Source of the DNA: a bacterium
Lineage (GTDB): Bacteria > JAJVIF01 > JAGGVT01
Length of the DNA stretch: 30,584 nucleotides
Assembly (NCBI GenBank): GCA_021157815.1
Contig: JAGGVT010000124.1
Coordinates: 1 to 30,584, forward strand
Reading direction: 5' to 3'
Shown here: positions 466-24,251 of the stretch, piece after piece
Position numbering within the stretch: position 1 is the first letter of the stretch
Layout of the letters: each line of letters begins with the position of its first letter
Made by a program: the position numbers and the translations under genes
The notes under the pieces: generated by a model
Seen by the model: the letters and a program-made list of their open reading frames with translations, nothing else
Database searches by the model: none
Told to the model about the DNA's origin: nothing

Positions 466-1770
466 ATGTATCTAACAGGATGCGCATATATTGACGGCAT
501 TATCGTGCGAGAGGTTCTGGACAGCCGGGGTAACCCGACGGTTGAGGTTGAGGTTCTTAGCGATACCGGTGCGATTGGCAGGGCAATTGTTCCATCGGGA
601 GCGTCAACGGGAAGCCATGAAGCGCTTGAGCTTCGAGATGGCGGCAAGCGATATGGTGGCAAGGGTGTTATCAAAGCCATTAATAACATTCTGAAAAAAA
701 TCGCGCCGGAGATTATCGGGCTTGAGGTTACAGAACAGCGCCTGATTGACGGCATAATGTGCGAGTTGGACGGCACTGATAACAAGACCAAACTCGGCGC
801 AAACGCGATTCTGGGAGTTTCAATGGCGGTCGCGCGCTGCGCTGCCGAATGCCTTGGAATCCCGCTGTACCGTTACCTTGGCGGACCAAACTGCAGCATA
901 TTGCCGGTTCCACAGATGAACATACTCAACGGCGGAGGGCATGCGGATAATAATGTCGATATCCAGGAATTCATGATTCTTCCAGTCGGCGCGAAAAGTT
1001 TCAGGGAAGCTGTCCGTATGAACGCCGAGATTTATCACGAGCTGAAGAAAGTGCTGAAAGCCAAAAAACTCTCAACCGGAGTTGGCGATGAGGGCGGATT
1101 CGCTCCCAATCTTAAATCAAACGAGGAAGCTCTCGATTTTATTATAAAAGCAATTAAGGACGCCGGCTACAAGCCCGGCAAGGATATTCTTCTTGCAATT
1201 GATTGCGCGGCGAACGATTTCTGGGTGAAGAGTAAAAAGAAATATTACTTCGCATCCACGAAAGAATATTTCACGGCAAAAGAGCTGATAAAAAGATACG
1301 CCAAATGGGTTAAAAAGTATCCGATTGTATCCATAGAAGATCCGCTTCATGAGGATGACTGGGAAAACTGGGCGCTTATGATGGATGAGCTTGGCGATAA
1401 GATTCAGATTGTCGGCGATGATATTTATGTGACAAATCCCGATCGACTGGCAAAGGGAATTGAAATGGGATGCTCCAATTCGATTCTTATAAAACTTAAC
1501 CAGATTGGCTCGGTTTCTGAAACTCTTGATGTTATCGAGGCTGCTCATCGCGCGGGAATGACCTGCGTTATATCGCATCGAAGCGGTGAAACCGAGGACA
1601 CGACAATCGCCGACCTTGTTGTCGCTGTAAACGCAGGGCAGATTAAATCCGGAGCGCCGTGCAGAAGCGAACGAGTGGCAAAATACAACCAGCTTATGAG
1701 AATTGAAGAGGAACTTGACGAGGTTGGCGAATACGCCGGCAAAGAGGTTTTCTCGCTGTTTGTAAAGTAA
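466..1770 (+). CDS. eno: Enolase (phosphopyruvate hydratase)
   Basis: This protein interconverts 2-phosphoglycerate and phosphoenolpyruvate in glycolysis and gluconeogenesis, in the cytosol. It has 434 residues, the usual bacterial length. The N-terminal capping domain shows [14 protein letters not shown] (17-30) and the loop PSGASTG. The barrel carries the expected active site: E209 in GDEGGFAPN, metal ligands D246, E291 (SIEDP) and D318 (GDD), K343 in LIKLNQIG, and the signature [11 protein letters not shown] from S370. The ATG is preceded by AAGAGGTG at five bases' spacing, which fixes the start. The gene stands alone, with its own promoter directly after the octamer array. GDDIYVTN replaces the commoner GDDLFVTN, a conservative change. 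The identification is secure. Confidence 0.98.
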
Positions 1771-1783
1771 ATATGCCTGATAT

Positions 1784-1825
1784 AAAGAACAGCAGAGGGT
1801 TTAAGAGCCTGCCGGAAAAGGCGCT
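1784..1825. repeat. Solo end of the 225-bp inverted element
   Basis: The segment beginning AGCAGAGGGTTTAAGAGCCT just after the eno stop matches the terminal inverted repeat of the elements at 12994-13223 and 15238-15458. Only the end is present. It looks like a relic or a shared terminal motif. Confidence 0.5.
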
Positions 1826-1889
1826 GCATTTTATTGGTAAAAGAAAAAGTTAAAATTGGTCACTGAAATCATTATTCGTCATTTAACCC

Positions 1890-2119
1890 GTCATTCTCGC
1901 GAAAGAGCCTGTCGGGAAAGGTTGTTTTTATATCTTATCCCCCCCTTTAATCCCCCCGCGAGCGGGGGGAAATATTTTTGCATTTGCAAACGATTTACCC
2001 GGTCTACACACTTGCGAAGGGAAAAGACAACATTCTCCCTCCCCGCTCGCGGGGAGGGCTGGGGTCGGGGGCATTTTGTTTGCGATGCCTTTCCCGACAG
2101 ACGCTTTCGCGGGAATGAC
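1890..2119. repeat. 230-bp palindromic dispersed element
   Basis: Arms of about 32 bp at 1890-1921 and 2088-2119 are inverted copies with only a few mismatches; both contain GCGAAAG and CTGTCGGGAAAGG. Inside lie two GC-rich hairpins. One is CCCCCCGC/GCGGGGGG at 1952-1969. The other is CCCTCCCCG/CGGGGAGGG at 2037-2058. The open frames crossing it on both strands are low-complexity by-products of the palindrome. The remainder of 1771-2308 holds no gene I can support. Confidence 0.7.
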
Positions 2120-7712: not shown

Positions 7713-7786
7713 GGAATCGCCTCCTTGTCCTGGATTTGTCGTGGTGTGGGGGGCGGGGGAATTCCTTTTTACCATAATCCGTCAAA

Positions 7787-7819
7787 AGAAAAATCCCCTT
7801 AGGCATTACCGTGAAGGGG
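7787..7819 (-). terminator. Rho-independent terminator in the riboswitch leader
   Basis: On the minus strand, CCCCTT and AAGGGG form a 6-bp stem around a 13-base loop, followed directly by ATTTTTCTTTT. It lies between the riboswitch aptamer and the TadE-like start, the position expected of an expression platform. The stem is short, consistent with a regulated terminator. Confidence 0.65.
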
Positions 7820-7845
7820 TCTGAATTGCTGTGGGTATATATTAA

Positions 7846-7932
7846 TGTCATCCCGGCAACCAGACTATCTGAAATACATCAGATTCACAGCTTTGTGCCC
7901 CCGCCTCACGACGGGTTTACCTTTATACAGAA
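7846..7932 (-). ncRNA. Cyclic-di-GMP-I (GEMM-I) riboswitch
   Basis: Read on the minus strand, this shows the GEMM-I landmarks in order. First is AAAGGTAAACC. Next is a P2 stem CCCGTC/GGCGGG closed by a GTGA (GNRA) tetraloop, followed by GGCACAAAGC, matching the conserved GACGCAAAGC region. Then comes a P3 stem ATCTGA/TCAGAT and the conserved 3' segment ATAGTCTGGTTGCCGG. The base that discriminates c-di-GMP from cGAMP aligns by eye to G, favouring c-di-GMP. A promoter lies just upstream and a terminator just downstream, ahead of TadE- and TadG-like genes, a known target type for this second messenger. The hairpin CTGACA-GAGA-TGTCAG (about 7951-7966) lies 5' of the aptamer. Confidence 0.88.
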
Positions 7933-7972
7933 TGAAGCCCAAAAAATAAGGCTGACATCTCTGTCAGGAATA

Positions 7973-8001
7973 ATTATACCATATAATATGAATACTCACA
8001 A
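7973..8001 (-). promoter_or_regulatory. Promoter of the riboswitch-tadE-tadG unit
   Basis: On the minus strand, TTGTGA (8001-7996) and a perfect TATAAT (7978-7973) are 17 bp apart. Transcription would start near 7966, about 35 bases before the aptamer. This placement makes the Tad-like unit independent of the lipoprotein gene upstream. Confidence 0.6.
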
Positions 8002-21068: not shown

Positions 21069-24000
21069 TTATTTCAGATATGTGCCATCGACAATTTCAG
21101 AATCAACAATCACGCCATCCTTTATTCTAACAAAGAAATAATCGGAGTCGGTTGTTATGTCGCCTAGTTCGATTTCACAGGATGATTCAACGCCGGGTTT
21201 CTTTTCGCCGTAGATATCAACAAAGCCATCATGGATAATTCTGATTCCATACGCGTTGTTGTTTTTGTCAATCAGCTTTTCGCATTTTATTTCAGGGATG
21301 GTTTCAGAATCGTGCGGATATAGAAGCACGATATAATTAACCTCATCGGCATCCGTGCTTTTGTTCAGTCCGATATATGGAATATATCCCCAGCCGGGGT
21401 CGCCGGGAGTCCACCTGCCATCATCGCGCACCTTGGTTTTCCTGTCGCCTGTTGTGTCGATGCACAGTCCCTCTTTAAGGTCAACTGAACTGATTTCATC
21501 TGAGTCGGCGGGTATTACCAGAAGGCTTTTACCATCTTTTGTGAATGTAACAAGAGATTTATCCACCTTTCCGGGTTTGCCATATACATGAAGGAGCCAG
21601 GAATAATCGTGGTTTTGCGAGTCAGAAGATTTTAAATAATCGTTGATTATGAAATATTCACCACGCGGATGATAAATCGTTCGCGTGTGATTGATTCCCT
21701 CATAGCCGTCATGGTTGGCTGAAACCAAATCGAAATTCTCGCAACTGTCCCATTTACGCAAAGTTCCCGTTACCGCATCCTGGCTTTTGTTGTCAATCAT
21801 AACTGTGTTATGCGCGATTGTCTGTTTGTGCCATTCGTTGTGTTCCTTGATATATACACAATAATGCGGCGACGCTCCAGCATCTAGAACCCAGCCGATT
21901 CCATCCGCGTACATCACGAAATTCATTTTATCGTAATGCCCGTGCCACGCGCCGTGCTCGCCGTAATCGAATATCAGATATTTAGAATCCAAATCCCAGC
22001 TGTCGCGCATGACAGCCCAACCGGTGTCAGGTAGAAGCAGTGATTTAAAATTCGGAGTTTTGGGCTTTATAGTGTCCGACACAAGATGCTCAAGCGGCAG
22101 ATTTGATGTGTCTATTTTTCCCGCTTCAAGATATTTTCCTTTATCGAACTGGTTTATTATATCCAGCAGGAATAAATAAGTTGCCATTTGCGGACGCTTT
22201 GAATCGTTTATCGCAGGTGTTTCCCCAAGCGGAGTTACGATTTTCGCCATCCAGTCAAGAGTCGATTCAAGGCTTTTGCCATCGTATTCCTTAATGAATA
22301 AATTTTCGCCTGTTAGATGTTTCACCGCATTTGCGTACTTGCACAAAAACGAAAGCCCGTAGATATGATGTCCCGGACTGCGTTCAATCTGCCCGCCATC
22401 ATTCAGTATATCTGCATACAGCATCGGCATTCTGCTTTCGACATCATTCGCCCATCGCTCGTGTTCTGGGAATTCAGGGAAATACGCCACCATGCATCCG
22501 AAATTGCCCGTCCACATGAACTGGTGATTGCCGACCATCTCGGAATATTTCACACAGTAATCGACGCTGTGCCCTATTTGCCTGATGAATTCAATCAGCC
22601 TGATTTTATCATCCCTGGTCATCACGCCTGAATTGGCGAGCATGTCGTAGGCGTAAGTGGAGGAAAACATTTCATAAGATGAATCCCAGATTGAATACCA
22701 GTTTTCCGCTGACCTGAACACCTGGTATTTTTCGTAATGGTCAATTAATTTGGATTGCGCCTCCCATGCCTTTTTTGCATATTTTGTTTCCCCCGTTATC
22801 GCATACACAAGCGCGCATTTCATTCTGGTTGATCCGAGTGCGCCGTAACCCTCTGCCGCTCTTTTCGCCTGGTCTCGTGAGATACAGTTTCTGTCTTGCT
22901 GCATGTCATTTGAAACAAAATCAAGCAGCGGTTTAGTCAGCATTTCGTCCGCATCTTCTTTTATCTTCAACCATTGCTTTAATACATTTGGATTATTGCT
23001 AATCTTTTCTCTGAGTTCACCAAGTGATTTATCATCATAAACAAATCGCGGTGTTTGTTTTGCAATAATCTTATTAAGGGTATTAATATCAAGCTGCGGA
23101 TAGGCTTCATCCAGAACAATACGCCCCTGGCCATCGCGGCGGGCGTAATTGGGAATGCGGAGTTCTCCATCCGCTGTTTCATATCCCATGAACAGGCCTC
23201 TTTGGTATTTTGTCTCCCAATCGCAATTGCTTATTAAAGAGTTGATTTCATCTAATATTGGCAGTAATCGTTTTCGTTCAATTTGCCCCTTTGCATATAC
23301 AATCCCGGAATGTTCTTTTTTAACTTTTAAATACCTCTTATAACACTCCTCTCTTTTTGGATAACTATCATTCCTGTACTCTAATGTTTCAATAAACAAC
23401 AAGTGATCAAACTGGTATGGCATATAAAACTTGTCGCAAACAGCCGGAAAACTGCTCAGTTCCTTAGATTCAGTTTGTTTCCTTCTAGCAAAAAGAAAGT
23501 TCCATGCTGTGCCATTTTCGACAACAGGCGCAGTTAACAGAGAATACGCCGATTGCTCATGCTGCTTTCGCTCCTTGAATACACTCGGCCTTTCTATGCC
23601 CGTTTTCAGCGATTCAAACGGAATTGCCATCTCGACATACCAGTGTTTATCATCAACGGATGTTTTGACCTCGTACTCAGGCTCCCAGTCATAATAGATA
23701 TCGATGAAATCATCCACCAGTTCAACTGAGCCATCGCTTGTTACACCTTTTGAATTGACAATAAAGTGGAAATAGTTTTTGCAGTCACGATTTAGGTCAA
23801 GAAACAGTTCAATGCAGTCATCATCGACAACCTGCTGGTCATGTTCTGTTTCGTTGGCAACAAGCTGGCTTGTATCAGGCTCGTTGCATTTGAAAGCGAA
23901 ATAAACATTTTTATCATCGTAGGTTGCATATACTGTTGTTTGTTCCTCAGCGCGTCTGGCAGTATCCAGTAAAATGAAACTTGTCATGCCGAGTGGTTTT

Positions 24001-24170
24001 CTCCAGCAGTCCTCATTTAATACGCCATCAATAACTGGAGGCGTTTGGCACTTTAAGGCTAAAGGAGGTCTTTCAATATACCTAACCATGCCTGATACGC
24101 CTTGAGAAAGCATGACGACAAATATAATTAACAAGATTGTTATTTGTGAAATCGGTTTTATTTGTTTCAT
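21069..24170 (-). CDS. Secreted CBM9 / heparinase II/III-like polysaccharide lyase
   Basis: 1033 residues. The signal peptide is about residues 1-27 (ITILLIIFVVMLSQGVSG). A CBM9-type carbohydrate-binding domain (about 44-235) shows PPVIDGVLNEDCW, VYATYDDKNVYFAFKC and DDDCIELFLDLN. A helical toroid-like region (about 400-650) contains GNHQFMWTGNFG and DGGQIERSPGHHIYG. A heparinase II/III-like beta domain (from about 735) has GEHGAWHGHYDKMNFVMYADG, the likely catalytic His/Tyr stretch, and later HTRTIYHPRGEYFIINDYL. It probably cleaves an acidic polysaccharide by beta-elimination outside the cell. AGGAG eight bases upstream fixes the ATG at 24170. It follows the aminotransferase gene by ~80 bp in the symporter operon. 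Confidence 0.87.
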   Translation of the reverse strand: MKQIKPISQITILLIIFVVMLSQGVSGMVRYIERPPLALKCQTPPVIDGVLNEDCWRKPLGMTSFILLDTARRAEEQTTVYATYDDKNVYFAFKCNEPDTSQLVANETEHDQQVVDDDCIELFLDLNRDCKNYFHFIVNSKGVTSDGSVELVDDFIDIYYDWEPEYEVKTSVDDKHWYVEMAIPFESLKTGIERPSVFKERKQHEQSAYSLLTAPVVENGTAWNFLFARRKQTESKELSSFPAVCDKFYMPYQFDHLLFIETLEYRNDSYPKREECYKRYLKVKKEHSGIVYAKGQIERKRLLPILDEINSLISNCDWETKYQRGLFMGYETADGELRIPNYARRDGQGRIVLDEAYPQLDINTLNKIIAKQTPRFVYDDKSLGELREKISNNPNVLKQWLKIKEDADEMLTKPLLDFVSNDMQQDRNCISRDQAKRAAEGYGALGSTRMKCALVYAITGETKYAKKAWEAQSKLIDHYEKYQVFRSAENWYSIWDSSYEMFSSTYAYDMLANSGVMTRDDKIRLIEFIRQIGHSVDYCVKYSEMVGNHQFMWTGNFGCMVAYFPEFPEHERWANDVESRMPMLYADILNDGGQIERSPGHHIYGLSFLCKYANAVKHLTGENLFIKEYDGKSLESTLDWMAKIVTPLGETPAINDSKRPQMATYLFLLDIINQFDKGKYLEAGKIDTSNLPLEHLVSDTIKPKTPNFKSLLLPDTGWAVMRDSWDLDSKYLIFDYGEHGAWHGHYDKMNFVMYADGIGWVLDAGASPHYCVYIKEHNEWHKQTIAHNTVMIDNKSQDAVTGTLRKWDSCENFDLVSANHDGYEGINHTRTIYHPRGEYFIINDYLKSSDSQNHDYSWLLHVYGKPGKVDKSLVTFTKDGKSLLVIPADSDEISSVDLKEGLCIDTTGDRKTKVRDDGRWTPGDPGWGYIPYIGLNKSTDADEVNYIVLLYPHDSETIPEIKCEKLIDKNNNAYGIRIIHDGFVDIYGEKKPGVESSCEIELGDITTDSDYFFVRIKDGVIVDSEIVDGTYLK

Positions 24171-24251
24171 TGTTATTGCTCCTGATGTTTTATACAGCAC
24201 CCGAGATTGAATTGCATAGATTTTTATGCAACACCATGCTAAAGCATGGTG

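Follow-up and report, generated by a model that had tools for sequence, protein, structure and literature searches.

A candidate class-I c-di-GMP riboswitch before Tad pilus subunit genes in an uncultured bacterial lineage

Introduction

The control of pili by GEMM-I riboswitches has long been known. To our knowledge, the described links between c-di-GMP and the Tad pilus, in contrast, run through proteins. Two described riboswitches come closest to the system presented here. The Cd1 riboswitch of Clostridioides difficile stands before flagellar genes and follows an OFF logic, with a terminator that coexists with the bound aptamer and a ligand-free antiterminator that competes with both aptamer and terminator (PMC9262584). 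The pilM riboswitch of Geobacter metallireducens, on the other hand, is a cGAMP-responsive ON switch before pilus genes, whose terminator uses a strand of the aptamer, the two structures being mutually exclusive (PMC9262584). Among GEMM-I aptamers, G20 is the selectivity position (PMC9262584), and a cGAMP complex of the G20A mutant has been reported (PMC6274999).

Here, we analyzed a stretch of 30,584 nucleotides of bacterial DNA (the window), in which a GEMM-I aptamer precedes a tadE-like gene. Like other members of the family RF01051, this aptamer covers all 87 model positions, has a GNRA-capped P2 and a c-di-GMP-type G, and lies upstream of a gene for a surface structure; what sets it apart is its target, the tadE and tadG genes of a Tad (type IVc) pilus, and the uncultured lineage in which it occurs. 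With Cd1, the leader shares, in its arrangement, the predicted coexistence of terminator and aptamer as well as the competing ligand-free antiterminator, while the target genes differ and the logic of the window leader is a prediction only. Common to pilM and the window are a GEMM-I aptamer, pilus genes and transcription termination, but the logic predicted here is the opposite one, the aptamer carries the c-di-GMP-type G instead of belonging to the cGAMP class, and the pilus system is a different one.

Results

When the whole window was scanned with cmscan, RF01051 (c-di-GMP-I, GEMM-I) was the sole family matched (Table 1). The score exceeds the gathering score of 35, and the E-value was 1.2e-10 when the whole genome was searched. 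This covariance search, which the preliminary description had proposed, identifies the feature as a genuine full-length c-di-GMP-I aptamer, and the elements formerly recognized by eye, i.e., the GNRA-capped P2 (CCCGUC-GUGA-GGCGGG, loop GUGA), CAAAGC and GGUUGCCGG, are all present in sequence and alignment. In Vc2 numbering, as mapped in this analysis with model column 11 as G20, the aptamer has G at G20 (AAAGGU), A at A47 (CAAAGC) and the conserved CC toward the 3' end (UUGCCGG). Conserved junction positions are retained save A34, which is replaced by G, and one of them is kept via a paired change: in the junction stem, U-A (GGU...ACA) replaces the C-G pair of the family consensus (GGC...GCA), both bases having changed with pairing retained, and this pair adjoins the ligand pocket.

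The source genome (3.2 Mb, 221 contigs, ~91% complete) contains exactly three RF01051 matches, and the column separating c-di-GMP from cGAMP aptamers is G in all of them; the A at Vc2-G20 that defines cGAMP riboswitches (GEMM-Ib) was found neither in the window nor in the other two copies. The preliminary description had tentatively read the discriminating base as G, and model column 11 of the covariance alignment agrees. Because this base is G, c-di-GMP is the likely ligand of the window aptamer, and a direct c-di-GMP switch before tadE can soundly be inferred. The two other copies, on contigs C137 and C142, and an aptamer in G001, a genome of the same class, also score above the cut-off of the c-di-GMP-I-GGC variant RF03167. 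However, the consensus of this variant is CGAAGC, whereas all copies here have CAAAGC, and the window copy was kept as RF01051. An assignment of the C137 and C142 copies as altered-ligand variants of this kind was rejected, since the base apparently defining the variant is A and not G.

On the protein level, the genome encodes one strong GGDEF protein with a GGEEF motif and Asp at the PleD-344 position, which is a clear diguanylate cyclase, besides one further degenerate copy (GEDDF), six HD_5 (HD-GYP-type) matches and one PilZ match, which together point to a small c-di-GMP system; the genome search gave no EAL domain. Ser at the position of this Asp marks the cGAMP-making Hypr enzymes. In G001, the only GEMM-I aptamer (L012:1117-1191) has A in the discriminating column (AAUAGCAAACC), a cGAMP-type signature; it is followed by a terminator, no long open reading frame lies on its strand, and the two full GGDEF proteins of that genome both have the ordinary Asp.

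Table 1. Features of the window and of the Flp loci carrying GEMM-I aptamers.
Feature	Position	Strand	Basis or remark
Sigma70-type promoter, TTGTGA-17-TATAAT, TGG before -10	7973-8001	minus	consensus scan
Short hairpin CUGACA-GAGA-UGUCAG, then CCUUAUUUUUU	7952-7967	minus	terminator-like scan match, -6.9 kcal/mol
c-di-GMP-I (GEMM-I) aptamer	7852-7931	minus	RF01051, 57.9 bits, E 5e-9
Antiterminator, predicted 5' strand within aptamer (GGCA 7899-7896, GCUGUGAA 7891-7884)	7884-7899	minus	ligand-free minimum-energy fold
Second predicted ligand-free helix, GUCUGGUUGC (aptamer 3' strand, 7865-7856) with GCAAUUCAGAC (7829-7819)	7819-7865	minus	ligand-free fold
Antiterminator, predicted 3' strand (UUCACGGU 7815-7808, UGCC 7805-7802)	7802-7815	minus	ligand-free fold, shuffle control
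Intrinsic terminator CCCCUU-13 nt-AAGGGG-AUUUUUCUUUU	7784-7819	minus	sequence; hairpin 7819-7795, -10.9 kcal/mol; U-rich tail to 7784
CCCCCGCC, between terminator and ribosome site	7745-7760	minus	complementary to GGCGGGGG
Ribosome binding site AAGGAGG	7720-7726	minus	sequence
tadE-like gene, 149 aa	7263-7712	minus	PF07811 6.5e-17
tadG-like gene, 464 aa	5698-7092	minus	PF13400 5.4e-9 (TadG-type N-terminal domain)
Heparinase II/III-like gene, 1043 aa, with CBM9-like domain	21069-24200	minus	
L057 (Bacillota)			aptamer directly before flp
L070 (Firmicutes UBA3570)			aptamer directly before flp; TadE-like and TadG-like frames follow (by eye)
L073 (unclassified, DeMMO6_30 contig)	1096-1892		two flp genes, each with an aptamer directly before it; aptamers ~0.6 kb apart
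L091 (Bacillota)			aptamer directly before flp
L051 (Longimicrobiaceae)			aptamer ~0.8 kb upstream, with masked sequence in between, beside another Flp-like sequence

The leader runs in the order promoter, aptamer, intrinsic terminator, ribosome site, tadE and tadG. Both the order of promoter, aptamer and terminator before the TadE-like start and the identity of the TadE- and TadG-like proteins had been claimed before; the former was borne out by the scans, cmscan and the sequence, the latter by the domain matches given in Table 1. The promoter-like site has 10 of 12 consensus matches and an extended -10 (TG), with about one site of such a score expected by chance in the stretch, and an upstream TTG-N17-TATAAT with an extended -10 is common to the three riboswitches of the genome. 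Owing to a loop length above 8, the terminator escaped the consensus scan. The 6-bp hairpin with a U-run farther upstream coincides with the expected transcript 5' end; as a working terminator it was rejected, since transcription is expected to start there. The sequences CCCCCGCC, downstream of the terminator and ahead of the ribosome site, and GGCGGGGG, within P2, are perfect complements, and their pairing could provide a second fold in read-through transcripts and fits the sequence of the long leader.

At E <= 0.001, the window genes are the genome's only matches to PF07811 (tadE) and PF13400 (tadG). The terminator scan did not reveal a convincing minus-strand terminator between tadE and tadG; the two scan matches there, which overlap each other, extend over the ribosome site and start codon, and their GATTATT tails are weak. 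The two genes would be read as one operon. A TadE query returned no relatives among genome contigs or viral contigs, and no close relative carrying the same leader was found. Elsewhere in the window, genes for a DegT-type aminotransferase and a sodium:solute symporter adjoin the heparinase II/III-like gene.

Folding of the leader, which is thermodynamic and ignores transcription kinetics, gave a terminator pairing probability of 0.99 with the aptamer enforced vs. 0.22 in the free RNA. In the predicted ligand-free fold, the 3' strand of the antiterminator is drawn from the 5' arm and loop of the terminator. Aptamer and terminator can coexist in the predicted structures, whereas the ligand-free antiterminator destroys both; the terminator between aptamer and gene thus has a mutually exclusive predicted alternative fold. 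Just before the 3' arm of the terminator is made, the energetic cost of retaining the aptamer is 16.3 kcal/mol. When linker and loop were both shuffled (n = 400), no sequence reached this value (mean 7.8) and 1.8% equaled the observed free-to-bound contrast. Shuffling of the loop alone gave a free terminator probability as low as that observed in 38% and an equal contrast in 27% of cases, and the antiterminator consequently rests mainly on the linker helix and the truncated-transcript measure. Based on these models, our best guess is that the window leader acts as an OFF switch.

In the fold models, an antiterminator (6.8 kcal/mol) appeared transiently in the C137 leader at 150 nt, whereas a strong terminator formed at full length; no clear competition was seen in the C142 leader. 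Since the terminators of both form at equilibrium with or without the aptamer, the modelled OFF assignment is weaker for C137, and C142 gives no call.

Of the genome's three riboswitches, two stand before Tad pilin loci, namely the window copy and the one on C137. The latter heads a series of four Flp pilin genes, the second to fourth being 69-94% identical to the first, with a weak TadE/G-like gene after them. The third, on C142, lies before the gene of a 693-aa protein that resembles a lipoprotein and has GH123-like and carboxypeptidase-regulatory domains; this aptamer and gene (L033:11608-13911) come just after a BatD-like gene, and the G001 riboswitch likewise adjoins a gene that is BatD-like by eye. 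A tadZ/tadA/tadB/tadC-like cluster, consisting of T2SSE, two T2SSF and a receiver/CbiA protein like TadZ, is found on C131, and a fifth and last Flp pilin gene on C183, and the genome search gave no riboswitch match at either locus. With Flp, TadE, TadG and TadA/B/C/Z-like proteins, the Tad components covered by the search, the genome has the hallmarks of a Tad (type IVc) pilus. The very reduced Tad content noted in the preliminary description therefore applies to the window but not to the genome, which has flp genes on C137 and C183 and the tadZ/tadA/tadB/tadC-like genes on C131. The Tad-linked riboswitches of this genome stand at the subunit genes and not at the assembly machine.

An alignment of four of the genome's own Flp pilins was used as query to collect 56 Flp loci from genome records (213.7 kb), which were scanned with cmscan. 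Six aptamers of the GEMM-I clan were found in five of these loci, all upstream of flp and on the same strand. In four loci, three from Bacillota and one unclassified, the aptamer lies directly before flp, and L051 is probably a fifth GEMM-I/flp locus. As background, the source genome and 58 others compared as relatives (three of the same class, the rest of the same domain only) contain 24 above-cut-off matches in ~179 Mb (59 genomes, summed from listed sizes). By this density, ~0.03 aptamers would be expected in 214 kb, an enrichment of ~200-fold, with different genome sets underlying the two figures; the link between GEMM-I and Tad pilins thus recurs. The nearest named Flp (81%; L043, an unclassified sediment MAG from Lac Pavin) had no riboswitch in the cmscan search. 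In the Flp tree, built on few columns, the riboswitch-bearing loci did not group with the source genome's own pilins, and folding of the L057, L070 and L091 leaders revealed no uniform logic.

Discussion

Taken as a whole, the window leader is probably a class-I c-di-GMP riboswitch that controls transcription of the tadE-tadG operon as an OFF switch by termination. Transcription would start near position 7966 and the aptamer would fold first. Bound c-di-GMP would hold P3 and the junction stem, allowing the CCCCUU/AAGGGG hairpin to form and the polymerase to stop. Without ligand, the P3 5' strand GCUGUGAA and GGCA could pair with UUCACGGU and UGCC of the terminator and the aptamer 3' strand with GCAAUUCAGAC, and transcription would run on into tadE and tadG. 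The C137 copy would probably act likewise on the four tandem flp genes. The signal would therefore set the supply of Tad pilus subunits, not that of the assembly machine.

The same riboswitch could also work in the opposite direction, with the ligand blocking termination and Tad pilins being induced at high c-di-GMP levels. Such an ON switch would agree with the usual role of c-di-GMP in favoring surface structures and has a precedent in the cGAMP riboswitch before Geobacter pilM (PMC9262584). Nevertheless, we regard it as unlikely, because in pilM terminator and aptamer share a strand (PMC9262584), while the window terminator begins only after the end of the aptamer and, in the fold models, is compatible with it, like that of the OFF switch Cd1. 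Loss of regulation, leaving a recognizable aptamer in a leader that no longer switches, would be in line with the low score of the window copy, the lowest of the three in the genome (57.9 vs. 68.7 and 66.2 bits), and with the lack of a GEMM-I aptamer before flp in L043, the closest named relative to have a similar Flp. A relic of this kind is rather improbable given that the junction positions are retained save A34 and that promoter, terminator and antiterminator are in register.

Regarding the ligand, it appears very improbable that c-di-GMP is not the main one and that the aptamer senses 3',3'-cGAMP or both dinucleotides: the discriminating base is G instead of A, and the one strong GGDEF enzyme has Asp and not Ser at the Hypr-marking position. 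What speaks for this option is that GEMM-I aptamers include a cGAMP-selective branch and that changes low in P2 alter selectivity (PMC9262584), the window copy having G for A34 and the U-A pair by the pocket. Our preferred reading hence remains the c-di-GMP-responsive OFF switch.

Beyond this genome, the Flp loci suggest to us that GEMM-I has been recruited to Tad pilin genes repeatedly. We tentatively propose, as a possible though doubtful generalization, a recurrent convergent device, in which class-I c-di-GMP riboswitches directly before Tad pilin genes in several phyla would control the supply of Flp, TadE and TadG apart from the machine, with an OFF logic in the present lineage, i.e., less pilin at high c-di-GMP levels. 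In the literature found, no paper links a riboswitch to the Tad pilus or an Flp pilin in its title or abstract, a coverage that leaves out the 2007 GEMM discovery paper, which may list flp; as far as such absence of evidence goes, this use of GEMM-I appears to be undescribed.

For a bacterium apparently known from sequence only, the proposed switch offers a clear prediction for short RNAs in vitro. Of the three riboswitches in this one genome, two point to the Tad pilus, as do those in four or five of the 56 outside Flp loci. Direct control by c-di-GMP at the RNA level would thereby extend to the Tad pilus.
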